Of a stretch of 40,024 nucleotides of DNA, positions 797 through 19,689 are shown one piece after another; the stretch's first letter is position 1; each line of letters opens with the position of its first letter. The stretch is from Rhizobium sp. Q54. GTDB taxonomy: Bacteria; Pseudomonadota; Alphaproteobacteria; UBA2966; CAIVPW01. A model generated the notes under the pieces. That model was not told the origin of the DNA, ran no database searches, and saw only the letters and a program-made list of their open reading frames with translations. The DNA lies in assembly GCA_945889645.1 (NCBI GenBank), contig CAMDCA010000015.1, forward strand, positions 1 through 40,024, written 5' to 3'. The position numbers were made by a program, and so were the translations under genes.

Positions 797-2869
797 ATGT
801 CGCGTTGGTTGCGCATTTTCCTGCTGGCCGCACTGGCGCTGTCCGCTCCGTCGCTCGCGGACGCCGCCGGCCTGCGCACGCGCCTGACGCCGGCGCTGAT
901 CCAGCAGGTGTTCCCCGGTGCGGAAGACGTCGGCCCGGACGAAGGCACACCGCCGGCACTGCCGGTTACGATCGGCGGCGTTGTCGCCGGCTACATCTTC
1001 TCGACGCGCGACACGGTCAACGCCACCGGCTACGCCGGCACAGCGTTCGACCTGATCGGCGGCATGGCGCTGGATGGGCACATCACCGGCGCGGCGCTGC
1101 TGGAAGAACACGAGTCGATTCTCGATCGCGGCGTCGGGCGCGCCGTCATGGACAAGTTTGTCGCCGGCTTCGCCGCCGCGACGTTGAACGACTGGCGCGC
1201 GGTGCGTGCCGATCAGGTCAAAGGCGCCACCACCAGCGCGCGCCTGATGAAGAGCGGGATGCAGGCGGCGGCGCGCGTCGTGGCCAGCGACCGGCTGCCG
1301 CAGGCACCCGCGGAAGTACCGACTCTGGACCGCGTCCACGTCGAGACCGCGACCGTTGATGAACTGATTGCGCGCGGCGCCTTGATGCGTTGGCGCGTGC
1401 CGATGCGCGACGTTGCGCGCGCGTTCGTCGCGGCCGGTGGTGACGGCGCGGCGCCGCAGCACGCCCGCGCTGATGCGGACGCCGCGTTCCTCGACGTGCA
1501 GTTGGCGTTGCTGACGCCGCCTGCGATCGGGGCCAACATCCTTGGCCTGCAGCGATTCAACGAAGCGATGGATCGCCAGGGCGAAGGTGGCCTCGCCCTC
1601 TGGATGGCGAACACCGGCACGTTTCCTTATGCCGCCACGGGGCGCACGCAGCTCACTACCGGGTTTTTCGAGGACACCGTAAGCCTGGTGCAAGGTGGCC
1701 TGACCATCCGCCTGCGTCCCAGCATGGTGCGCGGCATCCGCGCCACCGGCGGTGACGGCCCGCTCGACGACATCGATGCGGCCGTGGTGTTCCTGCCGCC
1801 GGATGCCGGCCTTGACCCCTTGCAGCCTTGGCAGCTGGTCGTTGCGGTGCCCGGCCGCAGCGCGAACGGCGCCGCACTGTCGGTGCCGTTCGCGCTGACC
1901 TACTCGATGCCGGCGCGCTACATCGTCCAGCCGCCGCCGTCGCCGCCTGCGCCGCCGCCAGCGTGGGTCGAGCCGTGGACCGAGCACCGCATCGACATCG
2001 CCGTGCTGGCGGTGTTACTCGTCGTCGTCACGGCAGTGTTTCTGTCGCAAAACGTACTGACTCGGCGGCCACGCCTCTACGCCGCGACGCGCGTCGCGGT
2101 GCTGGCGTTCACCCTCGGCTGGCTCGGCTGGTACGCCGGGGGGCAGCTGTCGATCGTCAACGTGCTGGCCTACCTGCAGGCGCCGGTCACCGGAACGCCA
2201 CTGACGACGTTCCTGCTCGATCCGATTCTGGTGATCTTGTCGGCGTACGTCGCGCTATCGTTGTTGATCCTCGGCCGCGGCGTCTATTGCGGCTGGCTGT
2301 GCCCGTTCGGCGCGCTGCAGGAACTCAGCAACAAGGCGGCCGTGGCACTGCGCATTCCGCAATTGCGCGTGCCGGTGGCGGTGCAGGAGCGCCTCTGGGT
2401 GGTGAAGTACCTCGCCGCCGCGGCGATCATCGGCCTGACGTTCTTCGCCGTGGACTTCGCCGACAGCGCAGCGGAGGTCGAGCCGTTCAAGACCGCGATC
2501 AGCGTCCGCTTCGACCGCGAGCTGCCCTACGTCCTGTACGCGGGTGCGCTGTTGCTGATTGGGTTGTTCGTCGAGCGCTTCTACTGCCGCTTCCTCTGCC
2601 CGCTCGGCGGCGCGCTGGCGGTATTCGGCCGACTGCGCATGCTGCGCTGGCTGCGGCGGCGGCCCCAGTGCGGCACCGAGTGCCGCATCTGCGAGTCGGC
2701 CTGCCCGGTCGGCGCCATCGCGCCGTCGGGGGCCATCAACATGAACGAGTGCCTGCAGTGCCTTGATTGCCAGGTCGCGTACCACGACCCTGGCATCTGC
2801 CCGCCGCTGCGGGCGCGGGTCCAGCGGCGCATGGCGCCCCCCACCGGAATTACCGTAATCACAGTGTGA
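797..2869 (+). CDS. NosR/NirI-family membrane flavo-iron-sulfur protein
   Basis: This 690-residue protein has the NosR/NirI layout. A signal peptide (1-24) precedes a periplasmic FMN-binding domain (about 60-165) with KGATTS at 142-147. That fits the GAT-type site where ApbE attaches FMN to a threonine. A long periplasmic region follows, then several membrane segments (about 400-600) carrying two CxxxCP motifs (498-502 and 597-601). The cytoplasmic tail carries ferredoxin-like cysteines: C625, C629, C632 and C636, then C652, C655 and C658, with C668 near the end. In denitrifiers NosR feeds electrons to N2O reductase and NirI acts in nitrite reduction. No nosZ or nir gene is visible here, and the neighbours are PQQ-catabolism types. 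The family is clear but the partner is not. An apbE gene at the far end of the cluster could supply the flavin. Confidence 0.88.
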   Translation: MSRWLRIFLLAALALSAPSLADAAGLRTRLTPALIQQVFPGAEDVGPDEGTPPALPVTIGGVVAGYIFSTRDTVNATGYAGTAFDLIGGMALDGHITGAALLEEHESILDRGVGRAVMDKFVAGFAAATLNDWRAVRADQVKGATTSARLMKSGMQAAARVVASDRLPQAPAEVPTLDRVHVETATVDELIARGALMRWRVPMRDVARAFVAAGGDGAAPQHARADADAAFLDVQLALLTPPAIGANILGLQRFNEAMDRQGEGGLALWMANTGTFPYAATGRTQLTTGFFEDTVSLVQGGLTIRLRPSMVRGIRATGGDGPLDDIDAAVVFLPPDAGLDPLQPWQLVVAVPGRSANGAALSVPFALTYSMPARYIVQPPPSPPAPPPAWVEPWTEHRIDIAVLAVLLVVVTAVFLSQNVLTRRPRLYAATRVAVLAFTLGWLGWYAGGQLSIVNVLAYLQAPVTGTPLTTFLLDPILVILSAYVALSLLILGRGVYCGWLCPFGALQELSNKAAVALRIPQLRVPVAVQERLWVVKYLAAAAIIGLTFFAVDFADSAAEVEPFKTAISVRFDRELPYVLYAGALLLIGLFVERFYCRFLCPLGGALAVFGRLRMLRWLRRRPQCGTECRICESACPVGAIAPSGAINMNECLQCLDCQVAYHDPGICPPLRARVQRRMAPPTGITVITV

Positions 2870-2925
2870 AACAGGCGAAGTCAGGCTTTCTGCGGGGAAT
2901 GCGGGCACCGGACGGAGTCCCGGAG

Positions 2926-2944
2926 ACCGGCTCTGGTAGCCGGT
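2926..2944 (+). other. Hairpin after the NosR-like gene
   Basis: Perfect 7-bp inverted repeat ACCGGCT-CTGGT-AGCCGGT, 57 bases after the stop at 2869. There is no T tract, so it is a poor intrinsic terminator. It may be a processing or 3'-protection hairpin, or an operator upstream of the DUF1800 gene. Confidence 0.35.
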
Positions 2945-3030
2945 TCCAGCCCCTATGCCTGGTATAGGGTGCAGCCACAGGGCGACCACCGCACATTCCG
3001 CCCAGGTTTTTTCTTGGGAGGTACTTATCC

Positions 3031-4878
3031 ATGACGATTCGCTTGCGCGGCCTAGCCGCACTCGCGGGGGCGGCCGTGGCTGTGGCCATGACCGGTGCGG
3101 CCCTTTCCGCCAACCCGGGACCGTGGTCTCCGGGCCCGGCGAACTGGAAGGGCGATCTCTCGCCCATCACCGCCGCCGATTGGAACTACGACCGCGCCGC
3201 GCACCTGCTTTCGCGCGCTGGCTTCAGCGGCACCCCGGAAGAGATCGCGCGCCTGGCAGCGATGACGCCGGAACGCGCCGTTCGCTCGCTCGTCTACTAC
3301 GAGACCATCCCCAACCCGAAGCTGACGCCGTTCATCGAGTCGGGCTTCTGGGATCCGTCTCTGACCTATTTCCCCGATAGCCGCCCGGCAGCCACCGACA
3401 AGGCGCTCAAGGATGGCGGCAACATCGGCGTGATGAACAAGCCGGACGGCAACCGCGCCGTTCAGCCGACGTCCGACCGCTTCTTCTACTGGCTGCGCGC
3501 CACCGACCTGGAGTCGCGCCGCGTCGGTCAATGGTTCGCCGAGCGCATGCTCGACACCACGCATCCGCTCGAAGAGAAGATGGCGCTGTTCTGGCACGGC
3601 CACTTCGCCACCGCCGAGGGCAAGGTCCGCGACTATCGCAAGATGGTTCAGCAGATCGACATGTTCGAGAAGTACGCCACCGGCAACTTCGCGCAGCTCG
3701 CCATCAACGTCGCCCAGAACCCGGCGATGCTCTACTTCCTCGACGCCGGCGTGAACGTTAAGGGCGCGGCCAACGAGAACTTCGCCCGTGAGGTGATGGA
3801 ACTCTTCACCATGGGCGTCGGCAACTACATCGAGAAGGACGTCCGCGAAGCCGCGCGCGCCTTCACCGGCTGGAACTTCGACAACCTCGACTTCGTCGTC
3901 GACAAAGAGAAGCACGACGATGGCGTGAAGACGTTCCTCGGCCGAACCGGCAACTTCAACGGCGTTGAGGTGCTCAAGATCATCTTCGAGCAGCCGGTGA
4001 CCGCCAACTACATTGCCGGCAAGGTCTACAACTACTTCGTCCGCGACGACATCTCGGCAGAGCAGAAGGCCCAACTCGGCAAGATTCTGCGCGACAACAA
4101 CTACGAAATGAAGCCGCTGCTCCTCACCTTGTTTATGTCGAAGGACTTCTACTCGGCAGCGTCCTACGGCTCGCACATCAAGGGCCCGGTGGAGCACGTC
4201 GTGACGATGATGAAGCAGCTGGGCGCGCCGGAAATCCCCGGCATCCCGGACTTCACCTTGACCACGACCGGACTCGGCCAGACCCTCCTGAACCCTCCGT
4301 CGGTTGCCGGCTGGGCCCAGGGCAAGTCGTGGATCACGCCGGCGATCGTCATGGAGCGTGGCAACATCGCTCGGGACTATCTGTTCCCGAACATCGTCAG
4401 CTTCCGCGATCCGAACCTCCTCACCACGAACACTGGTACGGACGGACAGATCGGTGACCGCCTGCGCAAGGGCGCCGACTACACCCAGGCCACGGCACTT
4501 GCCGACCCGGGCATGATGGGCGCGTTCGACATGGTGGCGCGCGAGCGTGACGAACTCTTCAACACGCGCGTGTCCGGGTACTACGCGTGGGAGCTCGCCT
4601 ATCGCAAGCTGATCCCGACCCCGCGCGGCGCGGCTCGCGTCGACATCACCGACATGGTGGTCGGCTCCGGCGTCAAGACAACGTCGGAAGCGGTCGACTA
4701 CATGCTCGGCCGGTTCCTGCGCGTCCCCGCTTCGGCAGAGATGCGCAATGCGCTGGTGGCGTTCCTCAACACAGAGCTCGGCACCACCGACATGGTTCGC
4801 GCCCGCACCTACTCCGAGACTCCGCTGCGCATGGTCACGCACATGATCATGAGCACGCCGGAATACCAGATCAACTAG
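3031..4878 (+). CDS. DUF1800 domain protein, exported
   Basis: A 615-residue protein. Residues 1-27 form a Sec signal peptide, and the rest matches the DUF1800 pattern. Marks are AAHLLSRAGFSGTPEEI near the start, KMALFWHGHFAT, NENFAREVMELFTMGVGNY, AARAFTGWNF, and a C-terminal part with PPSVAGW. The biochemical role of the family is unknown. It is nearly always paired with a DUF1501 gene, as here (29-bp gap), and I take the two as one operon. GGGAGG eight bases before the ATG fixes the start. The length is typical for the family. Nothing suggests truncation. The gene sits between the NosR-like gene and the ABC cluster, which says little about substrate. Confidence 0.9.
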   Translation: MTIRLRGLAALAGAAVAVAMTGAALSANPGPWSPGPANWKGDLSPITAADWNYDRAAHLLSRAGFSGTPEEIARLAAMTPERAVRSLVYYETIPNPKLTPFIESGFWDPSLTYFPDSRPAATDKALKDGGNIGVMNKPDGNRAVQPTSDRFFYWLRATDLESRRVGQWFAERMLDTTHPLEEKMALFWHGHFATAEGKVRDYRKMVQQIDMFEKYATGNFAQLAINVAQNPAMLYFLDAGVNVKGAANENFAREVMELFTMGVGNYIEKDVREAARAFTGWNFDNLDFVVDKEKHDDGVKTFLGRTGNFNGVEVLKIIFEQPVTANYIAGKVYNYFVRDDISAEQKAQLGKILRDNNYEMKPLLLTLFMSKDFYSAASYGSHIKGPVEHVVTMMKQLGAPEIPGIPDFTLTTTGLGQTLLNPPSVAGWAQGKSWITPAIVMERGNIARDYLFPNIVSFRDPNLLTTNTGTDGQIGDRLRKGADYTQATALADPGMMGAFDMVARERDELFNTRVSGYYAWELAYRKLIPTPRGAARVDITDMVVGSGVKTTSEAVDYMLGRFLRVPASAEMRNALVAFLNTELGTTDMVRARTYSETPLRMVTHMIMSTPEYQIN

Positions 4879-6544: not shown

Positions 6545-7570
6545 ATGACGATGTTGAGAAGGGCTTTTGTGCGGAAGGCGATTGTGTCGGCCGGCGCCGT
6601 GATGGCGATTGGGCTGATGAGCAGCAGCGCGCTTGCACAGGCAGCGCTGCCGAAGGTGCGCGTCGGCGTAATGGCCTCGGGCACCGTGAAGTGGGAGCTG
6701 TTGACGATGGCCGCGCGCGGCCTCGACAAGGCCAACGGCTTTGAGCTGGTGATCGGCGATTACGCCACCGGCGACGCGGCCGACATTGCCATCAACGGCA
6801 ACCAGGTCGAAGTCATCGCCAAGGATTTCATCGTCGTCTCGGCGCAGCGCGCGCAGGGCCTCGACTACACCTGGGTCCCCCATTCCGCCACGGTCGGCGG
6901 CGTCATCGTCAAGAAGGACAGCGGCATCAACACAGTAGCCGACCTCGCCGGCAAGACGATCGTCGTGTCGCCGAACGCGCTCGACAAGAGCTACATCCTG
7001 CTGCGCGCCTGGACCCAGTCCAAGCTCGGCAAGGACGTGACCGCGGTGGCGAAGGAAGTGAAGTTCGCTGCTTCGCCGCTCGCCAACGAAACGCTGACCA
7101 AGGGCGATGCCCAGGCGGCGATGAACCTGTGGAACTGGAACGCGCGCTTGCTCGCCAACCCGGACTACAAGCAGCTCATCGGCACCGAGGACATCCTGAA
7201 GGACCTCGGCGTCGAACGTAAGCTGCCGATGATCGGCTGGGTGTTCCACGAGGCATGGGCCAAGGCCCCCGCCAACGTGGCCGCCATCAACGGCTTCCTC
7301 ACGGCCAGCCAGGCCACCAAGCAGATCCTGTTGAAGGACGACGCCGCCTGGAACGGCCTCAAGGAGGCCATGGGCGTCGGCGCCGACAACAATCTGTTCC
7401 TCGCGCTGCGCGACCAGTATCGCCGCGGCATCGTAACGACCTACTCCGAAGACGACCGCAAGGCGGCTGCGGCGGCGTTCGCGATCCTGGCCAAGCTGGG
7501 CGGCGAAGACCTGGTTGGCAAGTCGCCCACCATCTCGCCGGGCACGTTCTGGGCGGGCTTCACGTTCTAA
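6545..7570 (+). CDS. NitT/TauT-type ABC transporter substrate-binding protein
   Basis: A 341-residue periplasmic protein. Residues 1-33 are a signal peptide ending SSALAQA. The mature part begins KVRVGVMASGTVKWEL and contains IVVSAQRAQGLDYTWVPHS and GINTVADLAGKTIVVSPNA, the two-lobed pattern of the SsuA/TauA/NrtA family (NMT1-like). The ATG at 6545 is chosen over upstream in-frame codons because AGGGAGA lies six bases before it and it begins a proper signal sequence. It heads an operon with a permease and two ATPases. The substrate is not readable from sequence: nitrate, sulfonates, aromatics or small organic acids are all bound by relatives. The context suggests a compound linked to periplasmic oxidation. 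Confidence 0.85.
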   Translation: MTMLRRAFVRKAIVSAGAVMAIGLMSSSALAQAALPKVRVGVMASGTVKWELLTMAARGLDKANGFELVIGDYATGDAADIAINGNQVEVIAKDFIVVSAQRAQGLDYTWVPHSATVGGVIVKKDSGINTVADLAGKTIVVSPNALDKSYILLRAWTQSKLGKDVTAVAKEVKFAASPLANETLTKGDAQAAMNLWNWNARLLANPDYKQLIGTEDILKDLGVERKLPMIGWVFHEAWAKAPANVAAINGFLTASQATKQILLKDDAAWNGLKEAMGVGADNNLFLALRDQYRRGIVTTYSEDDRKAAAAAFAILAKLGGEDLVGKSPTISPGTFWAGFTF

Positions 7571-7606
7571 CGAGTTGCGGTGATGTACGCGTAGAGTCAG
7601 CCACAC

Positions 7607-8512
7607 ATGACTGCTGAAGTTGGTGCCAGGGGCCGCGTGCGGTCCCTGGTTCCTTCCCGCGCCTCATTCCCTGGCTGGGGGGTGCGGCTCTTCTCGTTGC
7701 TGCTCCTGCTGACGCTTTGGCACGTCTCCGCGATGCGCGCCGACAGCCATTTCTATCCGACGCCGATCGCCGTCGCCAAAGCAGGCTGGGCGATGGCGCG
7801 ACCGGTGCAACAGACCCCCGGCTCCTACACCGTTCCGGTCAAGCGCACTGTCGGCGACGTGATCCGCGCCGCGACCATGATCGAGGTCACCGGCCTGAGC
7901 GTGCAGATCGGCGAACTGCCGTACCACATCGGCGTTACCTTGATCCGCGCCACCATCGCTTTCGTAGTCGCCATGATCCTGGGTTCGGTCGTCGGAATCA
8001 TGCTGGGGCGCAAGCCGATGCTGAACTGGCTGTTCGACAGCTGGATCGTGCTGGGGCTCAACATGCCCGCACTGGTAACGGCCATCCTTTGTTACATCTA
8101 CCTCGGCCTCAATACTTGGGCGCTGATCCTCGCCGTCGCCATCAACAAGATCCCGCTGGTCGCCGTGACCATGCGCGAGGGCGCCTCCGCCATCGAGCCC
8201 GAGCTCATCCAGGTCGGGCGCGCGTTCCGCCTCTCGACCATGCAGATGATGCGCAAGGTGTTCTTGCCGCAGCTTTACCCGTACTTCATGGCGTCGTGGC
8301 GTACAGGCCTCGCGCTGGTGTGGAAGATTGTGCTGGTGTTCGAGCTGTTCGGGTTCTCGAACGGCGTCGGCTTCGTGCTGCAGCTGCACTTCCAATTGGG
8401 CAACGTTGACCGCCTGCTCGCCTATGCGGTGGGCTTCATCGCCGTTGTCATGGTCATCGAGGCGCTGGTCACACGGCCGCTGGAGCGCCGGGCCACGCTG
8501 TGGCGCTTGTGA
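7607..8512 (+). CDS. NitT/TauT-type ABC transporter permease
   Basis: A 301-residue inner-membrane protein with about six hydrophobic segments. The coupling region VAVTMREGASAIEPELIQVGRAF is the EAA-type loop that docks the ATPase. LYPYFMASWRTGLALVWKIVLVFELFG is typical of SsuC/TauC proteins. It lies 36 bp after the binding-protein gene and 13 bp before the ATPase gene, so the three make a full importer. The N-terminal 20 residues are basic and cytoplasmic. The insert between the first and second membrane segments (about 45-105) is longer than in TauC, as seen in some aromatic or formamide-type relatives. Substrate unknown. Confidence 0.87.
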   Translation: MTAEVGARGRVRSLVPSRASFPGWGVRLFSLLLLLTLWHVSAMRADSHFYPTPIAVAKAGWAMARPVQQTPGSYTVPVKRTVGDVIRAATMIEVTGLSVQIGELPYHIGVTLIRATIAFVVAMILGSVVGIMLGRKPMLNWLFDSWIVLGLNMPALVTAILCYIYLGLNTWALILAVAINKIPLVAVTMREGASAIEPELIQVGRAFRLSTMQMMRKVFLPQLYPYFMASWRTGLALVWKIVLVFELFGFSNGVGFVLQLHFQLGNVDRLLAYAVGFIAVVMVIEALVTRPLERRATLWRL

Positions 8513-8525
8513 CGGGAATACGCTC

Positions 8526-9329
8526 GTGAACGTTCTCGACGTCGACATCCGGCGGAAGAACTTCGTCTCGTCCAACGGCGGCGAGTTCGTCGCCATCGCG
8601 GACATGAAGTTCGCGGTCCCGCGCGGGCAGTTCGTCTGCATCATCGGCCCGTCCGGTTCCGGCAAGACGACGTTCCTGCAGATCGTCTCCGGCCTCGACC
8701 CCAAGTTCGACGGCGAGGTCCGCATTGCCGGCCAAGCACCGGGCATGGGCCCGCGCCTCGGCTACATGTTCCAGAGCCCGCGCCTGATGCCGTGGCTGAC
8801 CGTGCGGCAGAACGTCGAGCTCGTCGCCACCCACCGCGCCGTCGGCCAGGGCATGCCGCAGAAGCTGCTGGAGCAGGTCGGCCTGGCCGAGTTCATCGAC
8901 TCCTATCCGAATCGCCTGTCCGGCGGCATGCAGCGCCGCGTCGCGCTGGCGCGGGCGTTCGTCAACGAACCGCCGCTGCTGCTGCTCGACGAGCCGTTCA
9001 TTTCGCTCGACACGCCGGTGGCCGACAAGCTGCGCGGCATCCTGCTCGATCAGTGGCGCGCTCGCGGTGCGACCATCGTGTTCGTCACCCATGACCTGCG
9101 CGAAGCGATCCAGCTCAGTGACCGCCTGCTGTTCATGTCGGCAAGTCCCGGCCGCGTCGTGCTCGACGTGCCGGTGCCGCTCGATCGGCCGCGGGTGCCC
9201 GAGTCGGCGGAGAGCGAAGCGTTCCGCGCGCAGCTGCTCGCCCAATACCCGGCGCTGCTCGCCGGCCTGGAGAAGTCGCGCTTGCAAGACGGCGAGGCCG
9301 TTCGTCCGGCGGCATTGGGAGCGGCATAA
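8526..9329 (+). CDS. NitT/TauT-type ABC transporter ATP-binding protein
   Basis: A 267-residue ATPase that energises the importer encoded just upstream. Walker A GPSGSGKTT is at 41-49, the Q loop is Gln83 (MFQSPRLMPW, the SsuB/TauB form), the signature LSGGM is at 131-135, Walker B LLLLDEP is at 151-157 and the switch His is 189 (FVTHD). I chose the GTG at 8526 because upstream in-frame codons run into the permease gene. The TAA stop is directly followed by the ATG of the next ATPase, so translation is probably coupled. All catalytic residues are present. Confidence 0.9.
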   Translation: MNVLDVDIRRKNFVSSNGGEFVAIADMKFAVPRGQFVCIIGPSGSGKTTFLQIVSGLDPKFDGEVRIAGQAPGMGPRLGYMFQSPRLMPWLTVRQNVELVATHRAVGQGMPQKLLEQVGLAEFIDSYPNRLSGGMQRRVALARAFVNEPPLLLLDEPFISLDTPVADKLRGILLDQWRARGATIVFVTHDLREAIQLSDRLLFMSASPGRVVLDVPVPLDRPRVPESAESEAFRAQLLAQYPALLAGLEKSRLQDGEAVRPAALGAA

Positions 9330-10097
<768 letters not shown>

Positions 10098-10201: not shown

Positions 10202-11674
10202 GTGATCCGGATCTACTCGCTCAGAGGGCTGCTACTCGCCCACGATTTGGCGTTCTTGCTGCTGATCGCAGTGACGGGCGCGATGGGCTGGCTCGGCCTC
10301 AGCCTGCGGCAGGAGGCGGCGGAAGAGTCGCTGCGCCTCAACTCCTTGATGACGCTGGTGCAGGAGGCGCGCGCCGACGTCTATCGTCAGATGTCGGAAG
10401 TGTTCGACCACGTGTTCCTCGGTGAGCCGACGGCGGTCACCGAGTACCTGTCCATCGGCCAGCGCATCCAACGCACCTTCCTGCGTATGGATATTGTGGC
10501 CGAGGAAAGTGTCGAGCAGGCCGCGGTAGACGAACTGCGCGGCTCCTACCAGGAAGTGCGCGGCCGCGCCGATCGCATCATGTCGTCGCCTACGCGCGCC
10601 ATTCGCCAAGCCGACCAGCTGGCGGTGTTCGTCACCGGCGACCTGCAGATGTCGTGGGTCGGCGACTACGAGCGCGTGCTGAACGCCACCGACGGGCTGC
10701 TGCGAATCACCCAGGCGGCCGAGCAAGCGCGTGTTTTGGACCTCAACCGCAACGTTGGCATCGTGCTCGCCATCCCGATCGTTCTTGCGGCGCTGCTGCT
10801 GCTGACGTCGCGCGGAATTCTGCAGCGCGCGTTCGTCCGGCCGCTTGCCGGCCTGCTGCGCGGCCTGGAGGAATATGCCCGCGGCCGCCTCGACTACATG
10901 GTGCCGGAAGTAGGCTCGGCCGAGCTGGTGACGTTAGAGCGCGCGGTCAACAGCATGGCCCGCGATCTGGCACAAAGCCGCGAGGCGCAGATGGCGTCGG
11001 AGCGCCAGGCAGCGCTCGGTGCCCTGGTGCCAGTGGTGGCGCACAACATCCGCAATCCGCTCGCCAGCATTCGCGCCGTCGCCCAAGTGCACGAAGGCGG
11101 CACGACGCCGCCCGAAGTCAGCCAAGGCCTGCGCGACATCCGCTACACCGTCGATCGCCTTGAGCGGTGGCTGAGCGCGCTGCTGTCGTATCTCAACCCG
11201 CTGCGCCTGACGCGGGTAGACGTGCGGGTCGCCGATGTCGCCGAGCAGGCCGTGACGATGCTGGCGCCGCGGTTTGAGGCCAAGCATATCCCCGTGCATC
11301 GCGAGGGATGGGATCTCGCCGTTCTCGCCTTCCTCGACGTTCACCTGATGGAACAGGCGGTGTACGGCCTGCTGGTCAACGCCATCGACGCTTCGCCGGA
11401 CGGCGCGCCGATCGCGCTGACCGTCCGTCGCAGCGGTCCCTCGGTGCAGCTGGTCATCGCCGATCGCGGCACCGGCATGCCGTTCCGCCCGACGCCCGGC
11501 GATCTCAACCCGGGTCCGACAACCAAGAGCTACGGCAGCGGCCTTGGGATCCCGTTCGCATTCAAGGTTTGCGGCTTGCATCAGGGCATGCTTGAGTTCG
11601 CCGCCCGCGAGGGTGGGGGCACCGAAGTGATCGTGACCCTGCCGGCCGCCGAAGGCGCGCGCACCGCAGCCTAG
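10202..11674 (+). CDS. Membrane sensor histidine kinase
   Basis: A 490-residue kinase. Membrane segment 1 is at about 13-34, a periplasmic helical sensor spans 35-183, membrane segment 2 is at 185-203, HAMP at 204-256, and the phosphorylated His is 281 in VVAHNIRNPLASIR. The ATP-binding part has the N box Asn393 (YGLLVNAIDAS), G1 DRGTGMP at 421-427 and G2 GSGLGIPF at 445-452. No PAS domain is seen, so the signal is probably periplasmic. The GTG at 10202 is chosen from its GGAG-like upstream site and membrane-type N-terminus. The response regulator follows six bases later, so they form one operon. The sensed compound is unknown. Neighbours suggest an alcohol, metal or redox signal. Confidence 0.9.
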   Translation: MIRIYSLRGLLLAHDLAFLLLIAVTGAMGWLGLSLRQEAAEESLRLNSLMTLVQEARADVYRQMSEVFDHVFLGEPTAVTEYLSIGQRIQRTFLRMDIVAEESVEQAAVDELRGSYQEVRGRADRIMSSPTRAIRQADQLAVFVTGDLQMSWVGDYERVLNATDGLLRITQAAEQARVLDLNRNVGIVLAIPIVLAALLLLTSRGILQRAFVRPLAGLLRGLEEYARGRLDYMVPEVGSAELVTLERAVNSMARDLAQSREAQMASERQAALGALVPVVAHNIRNPLASIRAVAQVHEGGTTPPEVSQGLRDIRYTVDRLERWLSALLSYLNPLRLTRVDVRVADVAEQAVTMLAPRFEAKHIPVHREGWDLAVLAFLDVHLMEQAVYGLLVNAIDASPDGAPIALTVRRSGPSVQLVIADRGTGMPFRPTPGDLNPGPTTKSYGSGLGIPFAFKVCGLHQGMLEFAAREGGGTEVIVTLPAAEGARTAA

Positions 11675-11680
11675 GACCGC

Positions 11681-13138
11681 ATGAGCGAAGCAGCACGCAA
11701 GGTTGACGACTCCAGCGCCCCGCACACCGGCCCGTCGTGGCGTATTCTGGTGGTCGAGGACGAGACCATGTTCGCCCGCGCCGTGGCGACCTGCCTGCAG
11801 CGCGCGGGACACCACGTTTCCCTTGCCGGCACGCTGGCCGAGGCGCGCAAGGTCCTGGGCGCTGCGGCCGTACCGCCCGACCTGGTCATCCTCGACATGC
11901 GGTTGCCGGACGGCGAGGGCTTCGATTTGCTCACCGGATTTGGCGAGGCAGGCGAGGCCATGCCGACCGTCATCGTCGTCACCGCCTATGGCGACATCGG
12001 CCAGGCTGTGAAGGCGATGAAGCTTGGCGCCGCCGATTACCTGAAAAAGCCGGTCGATCTCGACGAACTCCTCGTCACCCTCGACAAGGTGATGCGCTCG
12101 GCGCGGCTGCGCTCGCATCTCGACTATTCGCGCACGCGCGAAAGCCGCAGCGCCGACACCGGCGCGCTGATCGGCACGTCCGCGCCGCTGCGCGAGGCAC
12201 GCAAGCAGATCCAGACCATCGCCGCCGTCACCGGTGAGAACCCGCCGACGGCCTTGATCCTGGGCGAAACCGGCACCGGCAAGGACGTCACCGCGCGCCT
12301 GCTGCACCGCCTGTCGCCGCGTTCCGACCGCCCGTTTGTGCATGTCGACTGCGCGTCGCTGCCCAAGGACATCATGGAGGCCGAGTTGTTCGGCCACGTG
12401 CGCGGCGCGTTCACCAGCGCCCACTTGTCGCGCGCCGGACTGATCGAGGCGGCCGAGGACGGCACCGTATTCCTCGACGAAATCGGCGAGCTGCCTTCGG
12501 AGCTGCAGGCCAAGCTTCTGAATGTCCTGGAGCGGCGCGTCCTGCGCCGGGTCGGCAGCACCCGCGAGGTCCCGGTGACCGCGCGGTTCATTGCCGCCAC
12601 CAACCGCGACCTCAGCCAAATGGTGGCGCGCGGCGAGTTTCGCGACGACCTGTTCTATCGCCTCAACGTCCTGACCATCACGCTGCCGCCGCTGCGGTCG
12701 TGCCGCGAAGACATTCCGCAACTGGCGCGCCACTTCCTCGAAGGCACTTCGCGCTCCTACGGGCGGCCGATCCCGGAACTGCACGACGATGCGGTGGCGG
12801 CCCTCAAAGCGTACCCGTGGCCGGGCAACGTGCGCGAGCTCAAGAACGTCATCGAACGCAGCGCCCTGTTGTCGGGCGAAGACGGCATCACCGCCGACAG
12901 TCTCGATCTGAGCGCGGTGACTGCGCCGGGGCTGTCGGCGCGCCGATCGACCCCGCCGCCGGAAAGCGGCGTCAACACGCTGGCGGGGGCGGAGCGTTCG
13001 CTGATCGAGACGGCGCTACAGGAGACCGGCGGCAACACGTCCGAGGCGGCGCGCCGGCTCGGTATCACGCGCATGGCGCTGCGCTACCGCATGGAGAAGT
13101 ACGGGATTCGCCCCGCCGACTACACGCGCGGCTTCTGA
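11681..13138 (+). CDS. NtrC-family sigma54-dependent response regulator
   Basis: A 485-residue activator. The receiver domain (20-140) has acidic residues VEDE at 25-28, the phospho-acceptor Asp72 (VILDMRLPDG), Thr101 and Lys122/123. The AAA+ domain (about 160-400) has Walker A GETGTGKD at 195-202, Walker B GTVFLDEIGE at 261-270 and the arginine-finger region RDDLFYRLNV. The C-terminal Fis-type helix-turn-helix is at 450-475 (GNTSEAARRLGITRMALRYR). The sigma54-contact loop reads GAFTSA (242-247) in place of GAFTGA. It is co-transcribed with the kinase. Two sigma54 promoters lie in the 499 bp directly downstream, so its first targets are probably the sRNA candidate and the small exported proteins. 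Confidence 0.93.
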   Translation: MSEAARKVDDSSAPHTGPSWRILVVEDETMFARAVATCLQRAGHHVSLAGTLAEARKVLGAAAVPPDLVILDMRLPDGEGFDLLTGFGEAGEAMPTVIVVTAYGDIGQAVKAMKLGAADYLKKPVDLDELLVTLDKVMRSARLRSHLDYSRTRESRSADTGALIGTSAPLREARKQIQTIAAVTGENPPTALILGETGTGKDVTARLLHRLSPRSDRPFVHVDCASLPKDIMEAELFGHVRGAFTSAHLSRAGLIEAAEDGTVFLDEIGELPSELQAKLLNVLERRVLRRVGSTREVPVTARFIAATNRDLSQMVARGEFRDDLFYRLNVLTITLPPLRSCREDIPQLARHFLEGTSRSYGRPIPELHDDAVAALKAYPWPGNVRELKNVIERSALLSGEDGITADSLDLSAVTAPGLSARRSTPPPESGVNTLAGAERSLIETALQETGGNTSEAARRLGITRMALRYRMEKYGIRPADYTRGF

Positions 13139-13151
13139 CGGCGGAACCAAC

Positions 13152-13169
13152 TGGTCGCGGACGCGACCA
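13152..13169. promoter_or_regulatory. Perfect dyad, candidate activator site for the first sigma54 promoter
   Basis: TGGTCGCGGACGCGACCA is an 8-2-8 perfect inverted repeat, 13 bases after the response-regulator stop. Its centre is about 98 bases before the predicted start at 13259, a usual place for an NtrC-type enhancer site. The half-site TGGTCGC resembles TGGTGGC in the dyads at 13414 and 14090, but its spacer is four bases shorter. Binding by the adjacent regulator is inference. Confidence 0.5.
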
Positions 13170-13232: not shown

Positions 13233-13247
13233 TGGCACGCGCTTTGC
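13233..13247 (+). promoter_or_regulatory. Sigma54 (RpoN) promoter 1
   Basis: TGGCACGCGCTTTGC matches the consensus TGGCACG-N4-TTGC at every fixed position, with correct -24/-12 spacing. It lies 95 bases after the sigma54 activator gene, and the predicted start is about 13256-13260. No protein gene follows before the terminator at 13347-13380, so it points to a short untranslated transcript. Confidence 0.78.
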
Positions 13248-13256
13248 GACAAGGGA

Positions 13257-13380
13257 GCCCGAGTGCCCTCCTCCCTAGAGCGGGTGGCGGCGCCGGCCTT
13301 GGCCGGATGGTCGTTCCCGATGCAAATCGCACGGCACTTCCAAGAGAAAGGCAGCCCCAGGCTATGGGGCTGCCTTTTTC
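13257..13380 (+). ncRNA. Candidate sigma54-driven small RNA with anti-Shine-Dalgarno loop
   Basis: The region from the predicted sigma54 start to the terminator is about 120 nt and has no credible reading frame with a ribosome site. It folds in three parts. A 5' stem (GCCCG at 13257-13261 with CGGGT at 13281-13285) exposes CCCTCCTCCCT (13266-13276) in its loop. A second hairpin is CCGGCC-TT-GGCCGG at 13293-13306. After an A/C-rich single-stranded stretch comes the terminator hairpin. The CCUCCUCCC motif is the hallmark of the alphaproteobacterial cuckoo-type sRNAs, which expose it in loops. The arrangement kinase, sigma54 activator, sigma54 promoter, sRNA mirrors cbrA-cbrB-crcZ in pseudomonads. 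No homologue is claimed. The RNA itself is inference from promoter, fold and terminator agreeing. Confidence 0.6.
13347..13380 (+). terminator. Rho-independent terminator of the sRNA candidate
   Basis: A 12-bp perfect stem (AAAGGCAGCCCC at 13347-13358 with GGGGCTGCCTTT at 13366-13377), loop AGGCTAT, is followed by a T run (13375-13379). It lies 209 bases after the response-regulator stop, too far to be simply that gene's terminator, and about 90 bases after sigma54 promoter 1. Confidence 0.92.
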
Positions 13381-13413: not shown

Positions 13414-13436
13414 GTGGTGGCTAATGACAGCCACCA
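13414..13436. promoter_or_regulatory. Repeated dyad GTGGTGGCT-N6-RGCCACCA, copy 1
   Basis: GTGGTGGCT at 13414-13422 and AGCCACCA at 13429-13436 form an inverted repeat with a six-base centre (AATGAC). Its middle is about 118 bases before the predicted start of sigma54 promoter 2, a typical enhancer distance. A second copy with the same arms and spacing lies at 14090-14112. It is likely an operator; the adjacent sigma54 activator is the best candidate binder. Two more short dyads lie between it and the promoter (GACCA-ACTAG-TGGTC at 13450-13464, CCTGCC-AGTTT-GGCAGG at 13491-13507). Confidence 0.55.
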
Positions 13437-13516: not shown

Positions 13517-13531
13517 TGGCATAGGCTTTGC
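13517..13531 (+). promoter_or_regulatory. Sigma54 (RpoN) promoter 2
   Basis: TGGCATAGGCTTTGC keeps the -24 TGGCA and -12 TTGC elements at exact spacing, with one deviation from TGGCAC. The predicted start near 13543 leaves a leader of about 95 nt before the small exported protein gene at 13638. A repeated dyad is correctly placed upstream. The gene and site lie right behind a sigma54 activator gene, which makes chance less likely. Confidence 0.72.
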
Positions 13532-13637: not shown

Positions 13638-14051
13638 ATGAAGTTCTCACGTTCCATCATCGCCGCCGGATTGCTGGCACTTGGTCTCGTTGGGCCGGCC
13701 ACTGCCGCCGGCAACCTGACCACCGGCGCCACCGTCATCAAGATCGACATGGCCGCCAACAAGTTCAGCACCACCGCAATCGAGATGGAAACCGGCAAGG
13801 CCTACAACCTCGACATCACCAAGGTCGCCGGTGGCGAGTACCAGTTCCGTGCGCCGGACCTGTTCTCCAACTCCTACATCTTCCAGATCGCCGTCGACGG
13901 TAAGGAGATCAAGACGCGTCACATCGACTTCCTCGAGTTCGACGATGCGGGCACGATCCGCGTCAACCTGGTCCCGAACCGGATCGGCTCGTTCAAGTTC
14001 TGGGTGACCGGTCAGGAAGCGACCATGACGGGAACCATCACCGTCAAGTAG
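13638..14051 (+). CDS. Small exported cupredoxin-like beta-sandwich protein, paralogue 1
   Basis: A 137-residue protein. Residues 1-24 are a Sec signal peptide ending ATAAG. The mature part is strand-rich with ETGKAYNLDITK, FRAPDLF and a closing strand GTITVK, the pattern of cupredoxin-like domains. It has no cysteine and one histidine (in TRHIDF), so the Cys-His-His-Met copper site of true cupredoxins is absent. It shares AGNL, ETGK, APDL and GQE at matching places with the next gene, so the two are tandem paralogues. GAGGGAGG lies before the ATG. A sigma54 promoter is upstream. Possible roles are periplasmic ligand, lanthanide or redox-partner handling, but none is shown by sequence. Confidence 0.8.
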   Translation: MKFSRSIIAAGLLALGLVGPATAAGNLTTGATVIKIDMAANKFSTTAIEMETGKAYNLDITKVAGGEYQFRAPDLFSNSYIFQIAVDGKEIKTRHIDFLEFDDAGTIRVNLVPNRIGSFKFWVTGQEATMTGTITVK

Positions 14052-14603: not shown

Positions 14604-14644
14604 CGCGCTTCGCTCGCGTCAATTCTCTGGGAGGAGAATCATCC

Positions 14645-15688
14645 GTGACCAGTTCGCTTTGGACTCCGAGCCGCCGCGGTTTGCTGCAAGCCAGCGCCGC
14701 TGGTGCGGCCCTGGCATCGGCACCGTTCGGCGCGCATCCGGCGAAGGCCGTCGGCACTGGCCGTGTCTACGTCAGCCACGAAAAGTCCCATGAACTGGCG
14801 GTGCTTGATGGCACCAGCTTCAACGTCGTCAAGCGCATCAAGACCTCGCGCCGTCCGCGCGGCATGGTGTTCAACCCGGCCCACACGCTGCTGTACGTGG
14901 CGTGCGGTGATGAGGACGTGGTGGACGTGATCGACGTCGCCAAGGAGGCGGTTGTCGACTCGATCCCGACCGGTCCGTCGCCCGAGGTTTTGACCATCAG
15001 CCCCGACGAAAAGACGATGTTCATCGCCAACGAGGAAGACTCCTCGATGTGGATCATCAGCATTGAGGACAAGGTGCTGCTGCACGAAGTCCCGTCCGGA
15101 GCCGAACCTGAGGGCGTGCTGGTGACGCCGGACGGCAAGACCGTCTACCTGACGTCGGAAGTCGCCGACATGATCCACAAGGTTGACGTCGCTAAGGGCG
15201 TCATTCTCGACAACGTCGTCGTCGGCACACGACCGCGCCGCATGCGCGTGACGCCGGACCAGAAGGAACTTTGGATCACCTGCGAGTTGTCTGGCGAGGT
15301 CTATATCGTCGATATCGCCACCTACAAGGTCAAGGACGTCATCAACTTCCTGCCGCCCGGCTTCCGTCAGGTTGACGTGACGCCGGTGGGGCTTGAGATG
15401 ACCGCTGACGGCAAGAAGGTGTGGGTTACGCTCGGCCGTGCCAATCACGTCGCTGTCGTCGACGCCGCGACGCGCAAGATCGAGAACTACATCCTGGTCG
15501 GCTCGCGCCCGTGGGGCATCACGTTCACGTCCGACGAGAAGACCGCGTTCGTCGCCAATTGCCTGTCCGACGATATGTCGATCGTCGATATCGCGTCGAA
15601 GCGCGTTCTCAAGTCGGTTCCGACCGGGCGGGTGCCATATACGCCGCTCGTCAACGATCGTATCGGCTGGGCACCCGTCGGCAACTAA
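14645..15688 (+). CDS. PQQ-catabolism-associated YVTN beta-propeller protein (PedA2-like)
   Basis: A 347-residue periplasmic protein with a Tat-like leader (SRRGLLQASAAGAALASA at 9-26). Seven YVTN-type repeats fill the rest; typical units are VVKRIKTSRRPRGMVFNP, DGKTVYLTSE and GSRPWGITFTSDEKTAFVAN. This is the pattern of the propeller encoded beside PQQ-dependent catabolism ABC genes (TIGR03866 by recall, not searched). The GTG at 14645 follows GGGAGGAG. That site is exactly complementary to CTCCTCCC in the sRNA candidate at 13268-13275. The next gene starts 23 bp later. It is a likely periplasmic accessory of the export or metal system rather than an enzyme; no PQQ dehydrogenase is in the window. 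Confidence 0.85.
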   Translation: MTSSLWTPSRRGLLQASAAGAALASAPFGAHPAKAVGTGRVYVSHEKSHELAVLDGTSFNVVKRIKTSRRPRGMVFNPAHTLLYVACGDEDVVDVIDVAKEAVVDSIPTGPSPEVLTISPDEKTMFIANEEDSSMWIISIEDKVLLHEVPSGAEPEGVLVTPDGKTVYLTSEVADMIHKVDVAKGVILDNVVVGTRPRRMRVTPDQKELWITCELSGEVYIVDIATYKVKDVINFLPPGFRQVDVTPVGLEMTADGKKVWVTLGRANHVAVVDAATRKIENYILVGSRPWGITFTSDEKTAFVANCLSDDMSIVDIASKRVLKSVPTGRVPYTPLVNDRIGWAPVGN

Positions 15689-15711
15689 GGCTGTCGCAGG
15701 AGGAGCGCGTC

Positions 15712-16974
15712 ATGACTCGTTTCGTCACCGCCGCGGCCGCAGCCTTGCTGCTGGCACTGGGTGCCGCTGGTGCCTGGGGCCAGGCGGCGGCGCCCGCGGC
15801 TCCGGCCGCTCCGGCTCCAGCTGCGGCGCCGACAACGCTATTCAAGATCGGCTACCTCGATATCGAGGATGATCCGCGTTACGAGCGCGAATTCGTCTAT
15901 CAGATGACGCTGGCCGATCGCACGCGGGTGGGCATTCCGGCAGTGCCGCGCTACCGGCCGATGCCGGGCGCGGTGCTGGGCATCGACGAGTCGAACCAGA
16001 CCGGCCGCTTCAGCGGACAAACCTTCGAGATGGTCCGCCATTCCGGCATCGACGCGGCGGACCTCACCGCATGGGTTGAAAAGACGCGCGCCGAGCAGGG
16101 CGTGAACTTCTTCCTGATCGACGCCAGCACCGACGTCATCCGCGCCGTGTCGCAGAGCGTGCGCGGGCAGGACGTGTTCCTCATCAACGTCTCGAACGAA
16201 GACGACCGTCTGCGCGGGCCATTGTGCGCCGCCAACTTGGCGCACACCGCGCCAAGCTACAACATGATGACGGACGCCGTGACGCAGTACCTGGTGTTCC
16301 AGGGATGGGTGAACATCCTGCTGCTCACCGGCCCGCTCGAAGAAGACAAAAAGGTCGCCGACGCACTGAAGCGTTCAATTCGCCGCAACGGCGCGCGGCT
16401 GGTGGAGGAGCGCAACTTCATCGCCTCCAACGATCCGCGCCAGCGCGAACAGAACAACACGCGCCTGCTGACCGGTGGCAACCGTGACTACGACGTCGTA
16501 TTCATCGCCGACACCGACGGCGAGTTCGCGCGCACGTTCCCCTACCAGACGGTGCGCGCCCGCCCCGTCGTCGGCGCCGCCGGCCTGACGCCGGAAGCGT
16601 GGCACTGGACCTGGGAGCGCCAAGGCGCGCCGCAGCTGTCCAGCCGGTTCCATGTTGCCAACAGCCGTTTCATGTACGGGCCCGATTGGTCGGCATGGGC
16701 GGCGGTGCGCGCGCTGACGCTGGCCCAGACGCGGGTGAAGTCCCTCGACTACCGCCAAATCCGGGAATACGTGCTCAGCGACCAGCTGCGCTTCGACGGA
16801 TACATGGGCAGCCGGCTCGATTTCCGCTCGTGGGACCACCAGTTGCGCATGAACGTGTTTCTGACCATGCCCAATGCGGTGATTGCGCGGGCGCCGTTGG
16901 AGAAGTTCGAGCACGCGACCAACGACCTCGATACACTCGGCGTCGATCGCCCCGAGACCACCTGCAGGTTCTAG
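15712..16974 (+). CDS. PQQ-catabolism-associated ABC substrate-binding protein (PedB-like)
   Basis: A 420-residue protein. The signal peptide (1-24) is followed by an Ala/Pro-rich linker (about 25-42), then a periplasmic binding domain beginning FKIGYLDIEDDPRYE. The remainder has alternating alpha/beta segments with FFLIDASTDVIRAVS, VFLINVSNEDDRLRG and DYDVVFIADTDGEF. It matches the binding protein found with PQQ-dependent dehydrogenases (TIGR03863 by recall). GCAGGAGGAG before the ATG is a strong ribosome site. It lies between the propeller and the ABC-2 permease in one operon. In Pseudomonas putida the equivalent system is linked to lanthanide-dependent growth; the ligand here is not shown. 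Confidence 0.83.
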   Translation: MTRFVTAAAAALLLALGAAGAWGQAAAPAAPAAPAPAAAPTTLFKIGYLDIEDDPRYEREFVYQMTLADRTRVGIPAVPRYRPMPGAVLGIDESNQTGRFSGQTFEMVRHSGIDAADLTAWVEKTRAEQGVNFFLIDASTDVIRAVSQSVRGQDVFLINVSNEDDRLRGPLCAANLAHTAPSYNMMTDAVTQYLVFQGWVNILLLTGPLEEDKKVADALKRSIRRNGARLVEERNFIASNDPRQREQNNTRLLTGGNRDYDVVFIADTDGEFARTFPYQTVRARPVVGAAGLTPEAWHWTWERQGAPQLSSRFHVANSRFMYGPDWSAWAAVRALTLAQTRVKSLDYRQIREYVLSDQLRFDGYMGSRLDFRSWDHQLRMNVFLTMPNAVIARAPLEKFEHATNDLDTLGVDRPETTCRF

Positions 16975-16982
16975 AGAATCCG

Positions 16983-17870
16983 ATGACGGCCCAGGCGACG
17001 ACCGACGTCCTGCCGACTGCGCGCCCGGCGCAGAAGTCCTCGACCGCGGTGCACTGGCTACTGGCGCTGAAAGCCATCAGCCAGCGCGAGGTCGGCAAGT
17101 TCATTCGTCAGCGCGGCCGCTGGGCGTCGGCGCTGGTGCGTCCGGTGTTGTGGTTGATCGTGTTCGCCGCCGGTATCGGGAGCCTGCTCGGCATTTCGAT
17201 CACGCCGCCGTACCAGACCTATGTGACGTATCAGGAGTACATCATGCCGGGCTTGCTCGGCATCGTGCTGCTGTTCTACGGCATGCAGTCGTCGCTCTCG
17301 ATGGTCTACGACCGTGAGATGGGCATGATGCGGCTACTGCTAACGGCGCCGCTGCCGCGTTGGTCGCTGCTGCTATTCAAGCTGCTGGGCGCGACGTTCC
17401 TGTCGGTGCTGCAGGCCTACATTTTCCTGCTCATCACCTACGGGTTCACCTTCATCTTTCCGCGCCTGACGGCGGCCCTGCCGTGGTCGGGATGGTTCTA
17501 TGTGCTGGGGCCGCTGTTCCTCGGCGGCATGATGCTCTCCGCGGTCGGCCTGCTGTTGTCGGTCTACATTCGCCAGCTGGAGAACTTCGCCGGCGCGATG
17601 AACTTCGTGATCTTTCCGATGTTCTTCATCTCGCCCGCGCTCTACCCGCTGTGGAAGCTGCGCGAGGTCGGCGCCGACGTCGTGTTCTGGGGTTCGCAGA
17701 TCAACCCGTTCACCCACGTCACCGAATTGATCCGCTATGCGATCTACGGCCAGTTCAACGCCGTCTCGTTCGCGGTGGTGATCGGCGTGACCTTGGCGTG
17801 CTTCGTGCTCGCGGCGGTCGGCTACGACCCGCAGCGCGGCATGATCCAGCGCATCGGCCGTTCTAACTAG
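16983..17870 (+). CDS. ABC-2 type permease, alcohol-cluster (PedC-like) type
   Basis: A 295-residue inner-membrane protein with six hydrophobic segments in the ABC-2 pattern. An N-terminal amphipathic helix (REVGKFIRQRGRW) precedes the first segment. GMQSSLSMVYDREMGMMRLLLTAPLPRW is the coupling region and FPMFFISPALYPLW lies late in the domain, as in DrrB/NodJ-like permeases. It is the typical permease of the PQQ-catabolism ABC set (TIGR03861, PedC, by recall). No ATPase gene is adjacent; the one at 9330 is the natural partner. It follows the binding-protein gene by eight bases. A transporter with a binding protein and an ABC-2 permease is unusual, and the direction of transport is unresolved. 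Confidence 0.87.
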   Translation: MTAQATTDVLPTARPAQKSSTAVHWLLALKAISQREVGKFIRQRGRWASALVRPVLWLIVFAAGIGSLLGISITPPYQTYVTYQEYIMPGLLGIVLLFYGMQSSLSMVYDREMGMMRLLLTAPLPRWSLLLFKLLGATFLSVLQAYIFLLITYGFTFIFPRLTAALPWSGWFYVLGPLFLGGMMLSAVGLLLSVYIRQLENFAGAMNFVIFPMFFISPALYPLWKLREVGADVVFWGSQINPFTHVTELIRYAIYGQFNAVSFAVVIGVTLACFVLAAVGYDPQRGMIQRIGRSN

Positions 17871-19014: not shown

Positions 19015-19035
19015 TCGGCGCTTTCGCCAAGAACA

Positions 19036-19067
19036 AAAAAGGGCCGCCCCTCGGGGCGGCCCTTTTT
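19036..19067. terminator. Bidirectional Rho-independent terminator
   Basis: AAAAAGGGCCGCCCC (19036-19050) and GGGGCGGCCCTTTTT (19053-19067) form a 15-bp perfect stem with a two-base loop, with A and T runs on both sides. It ends the plus-strand apbE transcript and the converging minus-strand gene at 19084. Confidence 0.95.
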
Positions 19068-19083
19068 GTTTGGTCTCTGCCGT

Positions 19084-19689
19084 CTAGCGGCGGGCGAGCG
19101 GCTTGGGATCGAAGTTCATGCCGACCACGGCGCCGTTGCCGTCGAGGGTGAAGCGCGCGACGGTCTCTTCGATCTGGTCGTGCATCTCCAGCGTCGCGTA
19201 ATAGACCAGCGTCACGACCGGGTTCAGCTTCTCGACCTTCACCGAAACCGGCACGCGGTCGATCAGGTTGGTGGCCAGGTACTGGTGCACGTTGACCGTG
19301 TATTCGCCCTGCATATAGCCACGCATCGACACGGTTTCCTGGTTCAGCGGATTCTGAATCTTCACGCCGTCCACCGTGATGGTGTCGCGGAAATTACCGC
19401 GGTCGTCGCGGTCCAGGTGCATCAGGCCGGCCTCGCGGCCCTTGTACCAAACCATGCCGCCCTGCGGATCCTGGACGTACAGGTCTATGTCGTCCGGATG
19501 GTTGTCCGGCCACGTCACAGAGATGAGGAACTCAGCTTTGGGGTCGATCTTGGCGTCCTGTGCGACCGGATTGATCAGCATGAACGCGACCAGGAACATG
19601 AACGTGAAGCTCAACAGCGCGTTGAACAGCATGTCCTGGAACGGATAGAAGACCTCGCCCTCGTAGAAAAATCCGTCAGACGACCTCAT
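19084..19689 (-). CDS. Membrane-anchored periplasmic protein with ExbD/MotB-like anchor
   Basis: A 201-residue protein. One membrane segment at about 22-40 (NALLSFTFMFLVAFMLINP) follows a short cytoplasmic start, as in ExbD/TolR/MotB proteins. The periplasmic part contains WPDNHPDDIDLYVQDPQGGMVWY, which resembles the DUF2135/YfaP type beta domain, followed by a strand-rich end. No ExbB/MotA channel gene is adjacent, so the partner is missing or distant. The ribosome site AAGGAGGAG sits about ten bases before the ATG and inside a small hairpin. I cannot give a function. Similarity to ion-driven motor proteins rests on the anchor only. Confidence 0.7.
   Translation of the reverse strand: MRSSDGFFYEGEVFYPFQDMLFNALLSFTFMFLVAFMLINPVAQDAKIDPKAEFLISVTWPDNHPDDIDLYVQDPQGGMVWYKGREAGLMHLDRDDRGNFRDTITVDGVKIQNPLNQETVSMRGYMQGEYTVNVHQYLATNLIDRVPVSVKVEKLNPVVTLVYYATLEMHDQIEETVARFTLDGNGAVVGMNFDPKPLARR

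Follow-up and report, generated by a model that had tools for sequence, protein, structure and literature searches.

What lies between the gene of a sigma54-activating response regulator and the operon that follows it, what would switch it on and what would it do? The window, i.e., the whole stretch of 40,024 nucleotides that was analyzed, is an entire contig (G000:C15) of a 2.3-Mb alphaproteobacterial draft genome, whose closest public relatives are metagenome-assembled genomes, several of them apparently derived from lakes. Pfam and NCBIfam matches identified, on the forward strand, a sensor histidine kinase (HAMP, HisKA and HATPase_c domains; 10202..11674) and an NtrC/AtoC-type response regulator, a sigma54 activator with receiver, AAA+ and Fis-type HTH domains (11681..13138), which has orthologues in genomes of the same genus and family. 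The best model for this regulator is AtoC (378 bits), the LuxO model giving 319 bits for a cut-off of 800. Upstream of the kinase lies the gene of an ABC ATPase of a PQQ-dependent alcohol dehydrogenase system (TIGR03864). Downstream of the regulator, the operon encodes two secreted proteins, the first of which (13638..14051, +) is cupredoxin-like by inspection and has no Pfam or NCBIfam match, and then (14639..17870, +) a PQQ-associated beta-propeller (TIGR03866), a binding protein close to TIGR03863 (402.8 bits for a cut-off of 413.6) and a PedC-type ABC permease (TIGR03861). The predicted RNA gene sits between the regulator and this PQQ/alcohol-oxidation operon. The genome encodes RpoN (PF04552, E 2.6e-65) and only three genuine sigma54 activators, the regulator and two NtrC/NtrX-like proteins on C27. 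A NosR-like membrane protein is also encoded near the PQQ cluster (797-2869; 511 bits, the curated cut-off of 1000 not being reached).

A Predicted Sigma54-Driven Small RNA Gene

Judging from its sequence elements, the region 13233-13380 very probably encodes a small RNA transcribed by the sigma54 RNA polymerase. The −24/−12 element of sigma54-dependent transcription units (TGGCAC-N5-TTGC) was found at 13233..13247 on the forward strand (TGGCACGCGCTTTGC). Its sequence, TGGCACG-CGCT-TTGC, is the only exact match to TGGCACGN4TTGC in the 40 kb, for 0.03 expected by chance, which agrees with the consensus RpoN promoter reported in the initial annotation. The RNA is predicted to start at about 13259 (±2 nt) and, as also proposed there, the 5′ arm of a hairpin is located at the right distance from the promoter: AGTGCC (13262..13267, +) forms a closing stem, P1, with GGCACT (13333..13338, +), with pair probabilities of 0.89-0.95 in the predicted fold. 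The predicted RNA (13259..13380, +), delimited from the promoter spacing and the terminator, is about 122 nt long. The strong intrinsic terminator expected about 120 nt downstream is present, with a 12-bp stem and a T tract (13347..13379, +), and consists of AAAGGCAGCCCC-aggctat-GGGGCTGCCTTT at 13347-13377 followed by T's up to 13379. Near the 5′ end of the RNA, 19 nt after the promoter, lies an anti-Shine-Dalgarno (anti-SD) motif, CCTCCTCCC (13267..13275, +).

The lack of any credible reading frame was also borne out: a GTG frame of 53 codons extends across the terminator and is absent from the three other copies of the RNA described below, and neither a frame nor a start nor a ribosome site is conserved across the four copies. 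An own promoter, an own terminator and no conserved reading frame, as in an intergenic trans-acting small RNA, were thus all found. The Rfam scan of the window returned no family at or above its gathering score, and for three of the four copies the body has an unremarkable folding energy once its terminator is left out.

A survey of sigma54 sites indicates how far this arrangement departs from chance. It covered 83 strict sites (TGGCAY-N5-TTGC) from five genomes of the same genus, among which the clear cases mostly lead to flagellins, cold-shock proteins, secreted proteins or the operons of the regulator. A strong terminator, defined by a score of at least 40 within 260 nt of the site, follows four of the 83 sites, the next best score being 33. 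CCTCC occurs 16-22 nt past TTGC at all four terminator-bearing sites compared to one of the 79 others (Fisher p = 2.7e-6), and this single exception is a cold-shock mRNA leader of G004, which was not counted as a copy. As a background, about 2% of random windows have a terminator scoring that high, and CCTCC turns up in about 1% of 27-nt slots. The pattern itself, with a raw count of about one per genome, is little more frequent than CCTCC would be by chance, and the evidence is instead the coincidence with the terminator. The coincidence of promoter, motif and terminator exceeds chance. The G004 cold-shock gene (L205, G004:C29:8989) is itself sigma54-driven, its leader carrying CCCTCCC adjoining the ribosome site; sigma54-driven cold-shock genes are present too in G000, G001 and G002.

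Copies and Orthologous Loci in Relatives

The RNA gene was found in four of the five species of the genus (G000, G001, G002 and G003). The G002 copy has the same position as in the window and follows a small lipoprotein-like gene, the G001 copy follows the gene of a regulator paralogue (70% identity), and the G003 copy is on a different contig and faces an ABC transporter gene in convergent orientation. In G001, G003 and G004, the orthologous locus contains the regulator and the operon promoter and lacks the RNA gene. The persistence in close relatives expected in the initial annotation is observed for the parts, which recur in four of five species, but not for the orthologous locus of these three genomes. 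Outside the genus, the exact combination of promoter and CCTCCTCCC was detected in one of about 380 genomes of the class, a case taken up below.

Similarity between RNA bodies exceeds that of shuffled sequences for the G001-G003 pair only (0/1000 shuffles), on which ground sequence homology of all four bodies was rejected; the MAFFT alignment misaligned the G002 copy. Common ancestry of the four rests on their parts and position, since bodies beyond G001-G003 are not alignable above chance. In all four copies, the nucleotides immediately preceding the motif pair with those immediately preceding the terminator (AGTGCC/GGCACT, GAGTGCA/TGCACTT, GGGTT/AACCC and AGGGTTC/GAATCCT). These pairings resemble compensatory change, which is suggestive but weak: taken singly, each is weakly significant (shuffle p of 0.025 for G000, 0.014 for G002 and 0.035 for G003), and that of G001 is not significant (0.53).

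In several relatives, the gene of the regulator, or that of its paralogue, is immediately followed by a small lipoprotein-like gene of no family recognizable by inspection (L031, ~7470-7743; L032; L033; L119, ~9164-9484), which is missing from the window. A further one in G007 (L035, 7533-7875), which has 61 codons and is sigma54-driven, is followed by a terminator whose loop reads TCCTCCC and possibly gives rise to a 3′-UTR anti-SD RNA.

Control of the RNA Gene

Two elements of the locus had gone unmentioned in the initial annotation, whose description of a kinase, an activator, a sigma54 promoter and an RNA in a row was correct as far as it went. A second sigma54 promoter, TGGCATAGGCTTTGC (13517..13531, +), conserved in relatives of the same genus, drives the operon. 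Between the two promoters lies a palindrome, TGGTGGCT-N6-AGCCACCA (13415..13436), and in the relatives the same palindrome precedes sigma54 promoters by about 100 bp. More generally, the regulator-type sigma54 promoters of same-genus genomes are preceded, at a distance of about 100 bp, by TGGTGGYT-N5/6-ARCCACCA or a close variant, and this distribution suggests that the palindrome is the binding site (UAS) of the regulator. The palindromes between the two promoters score 27.9 in G000 and 27.5 in G002, for a background maximum of 10.1. They lie beyond the RNA gene, 182 bp (G000) and 148 bp (G002) downstream of the first position of the RNA promoter, and precede the operon promoter by about 100 bp. 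The binding site of an activator is usually upstream of a sigma54 promoter, but sigma54 enhancers act from either side, downstream included. Therefore, one palindrome could serve both promoters, and the regulator bound at 13415-13436 would do so. The palindrome TGGTGGYT-N6-ARCCACCA would mark a small regulon of the regulator that comprises the PQQ operon and a second beta-propeller gene on C31 (G000:C31:4385-4406; L155), with a sigma54-driven cold-shock gene on C3 as a member carrying a variant palindrome.

The adjacent kinase and NtrC-type regulator would thus most likely activate the RNA together with the PQQ/alcohol-oxidation operon, and from the sequence we consider control of the RNA by this regulator moderately likely. 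The main alternative is that the RNA is genuine and sigma54-driven but depends on another activator (NtrC, NtrX or one encoded on missing contigs), its linkage to the regulator being incidental. None of the four RNA promoters has a strong regulator palindrome upstream, and the G003 copy, unlinked to the regulator, has none on either side. Furthermore, the −12 element continues as TTGCGA in three of the four RNA copies compared to TTGCCWAT at the regulator's own promoters, and NtrC and NtrX homologues are encoded at G000:C27. However, the RNA gene adjoins the regulator in G000 and G002 and its paralogue in G001, an enhancer can work from downstream, and only three genuine sigma54 activators were found in the genome, so that few other candidates are available; we regard this alternative as rather unlikely. 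A perfect 8-bp inverted repeat, TGGTCGCG-GA-CGCGACCA (13152..13169), 81 bp upstream of the RNA promoter, is at a suitable distance for an activator site, but repeats as good occur in 25 of 500 random stretches (5%); it is a possible but unsupported site that may be due to chance. Overall, the "dedicated" two-component/sigma54 switch that had been put forward is putative, control by the regulator being plausible; the palindrome lies downstream of the RNA gene and is common to the next promoter, and three orthologous loci have the regulator and no RNA gene.

Proposed Mode of Action

The sequence CCUCC(U)CCC is complementary to Shine-Dalgarno sequences. Exposed near the 5′ end of the RNA, it would pair with the Shine-Dalgarno regions of target mRNAs and block their translation, as for Qrr, NfeR1 and SisA; such anti-SD pairing is reasonably likely. 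The 5′-end position of the motif suits a pairing seed, although the folds predicted for the G000 and G002 copies engage part of the motif in base pairs (in G000, it is only about 62% unpaired on average in the folding ensemble). When the 35 translation starts of the window were crudely ranked by seed-only duplexes, no specific target stood out among them: the kinase start (GGAGGGC, 10202) comes second and the first operon gene seventh. The kinase start as a target would provide a feedback as in NfeR1-ntrB, to which we attach no weight, since the C-rich seed matches many starts.

The RNA could instead titrate an RNA-binding protein, in a CrcZ-like way, rather than pair with mRNAs. Its layout is identical to that of cbrB-crcZ, and a short C-rich motif leaves little room for target specificity, but the A-rich Hfq/Crc sites used by CrcZ are absent here, and the motif, a complement of Shine-Dalgarno sequences, acts by pairing in other alphaproteobacteria. 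This makes titration improbable. We infer the transcription of the RNA, the identity of its activator, its base-pairing and its targets; the whole explanation, i.e., a sigma54-driven small RNA, switched on with the operon by the adjacent kinase and regulator and blocking Shine-Dalgarno regions, appears fairly probable.

Two further explanations concern the nature of the transcript. The terminator, located 208 bp past the regulator stop codon with no other gene between, might merely end the regulator mRNA, any small RNA being a processed 3′ UTR, of a kind common in alphaproteobacteria, and the sigma54 match being fortuitous. This is quite improbable, since a perfect, correctly spaced promoter recurs together with the motif in three other genomes, in one of which it does not lie behind a regulator. 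Least probable by our estimate is a short mRNA or a leader peptide gene, as might be suggested by G007, where a sigma54 promoter at the equivalent position drives a small lipoprotein-like frame, and by the G004 sigma54/CCTCC site that precedes a cold-shock gene, since the four copies share no frame, start or ribosome site.

A LuxO-Linked RNA in Another Alphaproteobacterial Family

A second arrangement of this type occurs in another alphaproteobacterial family (f103), where five genomes share it. At the loci of G309 and three other genomes, a sigma54 promoter is followed by a hairpin (AGGACAC-loop-GTGTCCT), CCTCCCCC and a terminator. The RNA carries CCTCCTCCC and, in G309, G396, G412 and G413, adjoins the gene of a sigma54 response regulator in convergent orientation, e.g., at L233 (RNA at 1501-1600, +; LuxO-like regulator at 1782-3047, −), with further instances at L234-L237 and L240; the fifth copy (G386) adjoins a different gene. 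The regulator gives 524 bits with the LuxO model compared to 356 bits with the next one; the LuxO score, obtained with a fragment that lacks about the first 50 residues, is below the curated cut-off.

This LuxO-linked RNA resembles luxO-qrr1. It differs from the RNA of the window by its hairpin, located before the motif, and by its convergent orientation, and has no sequence similarity to it. The two RNAs appear independent, since none of the four RNA loci in the genus of the window is matched significantly by a covariance model of the f103 RNA (R1); the only match with a low E value in the window (19022-19149) is another terminator. This case weakens the claim that the arrangement is unique, strengthens the claim that it is functional and, as an independent example, is maybe easier to test. 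A repeated evolution in alphaproteobacteria of a sigma54 regulator with an adjacent sigma54-driven anti-SD RNA, AtoC-type and PQQ-linked here and LuxO-like elsewhere, with one enhancer firing both operon and RNA in the present case, so that one phosphorylation signal would turn on one gene set and silence others at the level of translation, is possible rather than probable.

Comparison with Known Systems

Sigma54-activated small RNAs are textbook knowledge in Vibrio, Pseudomonas and enterobacteria, as are anti-SD small RNAs in alphaproteobacteria. Our literature search found no paper joining the two in alphaproteobacteria. A small-RNA switch of this kind, known from Vibrio and Pseudomonas, apparently has not been described in Alphaproteobacteria. 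The novelty claimed in the initial annotation holds, apparently, for the combination in this class, but has to be tempered by the LuxO-Qrr precedent of Vibrio and by the f103 case. The hosts are uncultured freshwater bacteria in which the RNA lies beside the switch for alcohol-oxidation genes; if confirmed, it would provide a post-transcriptional arm for PQQ-linked metabolism and an example of an enhancer shared from inside a promoter pair.

CrcZ sequesters Hfq/Crc via A-rich sites. The CbrAB-CrcZ system of Pseudomonas likewise has a kinase, a sigma54 regulator and a sigma54-driven RNA gene in tandem, and the resemblance noted in the initial annotation is real as a layout. A CrcZ-type sponge was rejected, with no repeated A-rich Hfq/Crc sites on reading the sequence. 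Furthermore, the inferred site of the regulator is palindromic here, unlike the binding sequences of CbrB (PMC8871633). In enterobacteria, the two-component sigma54 activator QseF (GlrR) drives the small RNA GlmY (PMC6075780). The present proposal shares with it such an activator and a small RNA. GlmY is a protein-binding decoy, and the two RNAs have no anti-SD motif in common.

The cuckoo/alpha-r14 RNAs of Rhizobiales, which include NfeR1, share the anti-SD motif CCUCCUCCC with the RNA described here. They have at least three hairpins, each carrying the motif (PMC3927594, PMC10746234), and NfeR1 silences the two-component gene ntrB by motif pairing at its start (PMC10746234). Unlike the RNA of the window, NfeR1 is activated by LsrB, repressed by NtrC and not sigma54-driven. 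Membership of this group was rejected, one copy of CCUCCUCCC being present instead of at least three hairpin loops, with no Rfam match. Thus, the loop that had been read as a cuckoo core does hold a C-rich motif, but in a single copy, and with no Rfam family at the gathering score the cuckoo link is unsupported. The alpha-R8 RNAs also share a C-rich core, UUUCCUCCCU, whose pairing silences several mRNAs, and a close variant of the motif in SisA acts by pairing with ribosome-binding sites (PMC12559287). With a single UUUCCUCCCU stretch and an intrinsic terminator, alpha-R8 RNAs (MmgR, SisA-D) are comparable to the present RNA, but their gene often adjoins that of an N-formylglutamate amidohydrolase. 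The Rfam family suhB (RF00519), which we take to be alpha-R8, has no match in G000, nor at the RNA locus. Membership was rejected on this ground and on that of the architecture, a weak hairpin followed by a single-stranded UUUCCUCCCU and the terminator in alpha-R8, whereas the motif of the present RNA lies at the 5′ end, ahead of the hairpin. BcKCsr2 (RF02883) was likewise rejected: a full-length match is weak (24.7 bits for a gathering score of 40), with none in the other three copies.

Vibrio provides the classical sigma54-activated base-pairing RNAs, with qrr1 adjoining luxO. Membership of the Qrr RNAs was rejected, the linked regulator matching AtoC best and staying below the LuxO cut-off. 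The regulator is AtoC-like here, the RNA has no sequence similarity to Qrr, and its neighbors are PQQ/alcohol-oxidation genes, no quorum-sensing genes being seen. LuxO-Qrr is nevertheless the best working analogue: a sigma54 response regulator switches on a short non-coding RNA, which base-pairs with mRNAs at their ribosome-binding sites, as proposed here.
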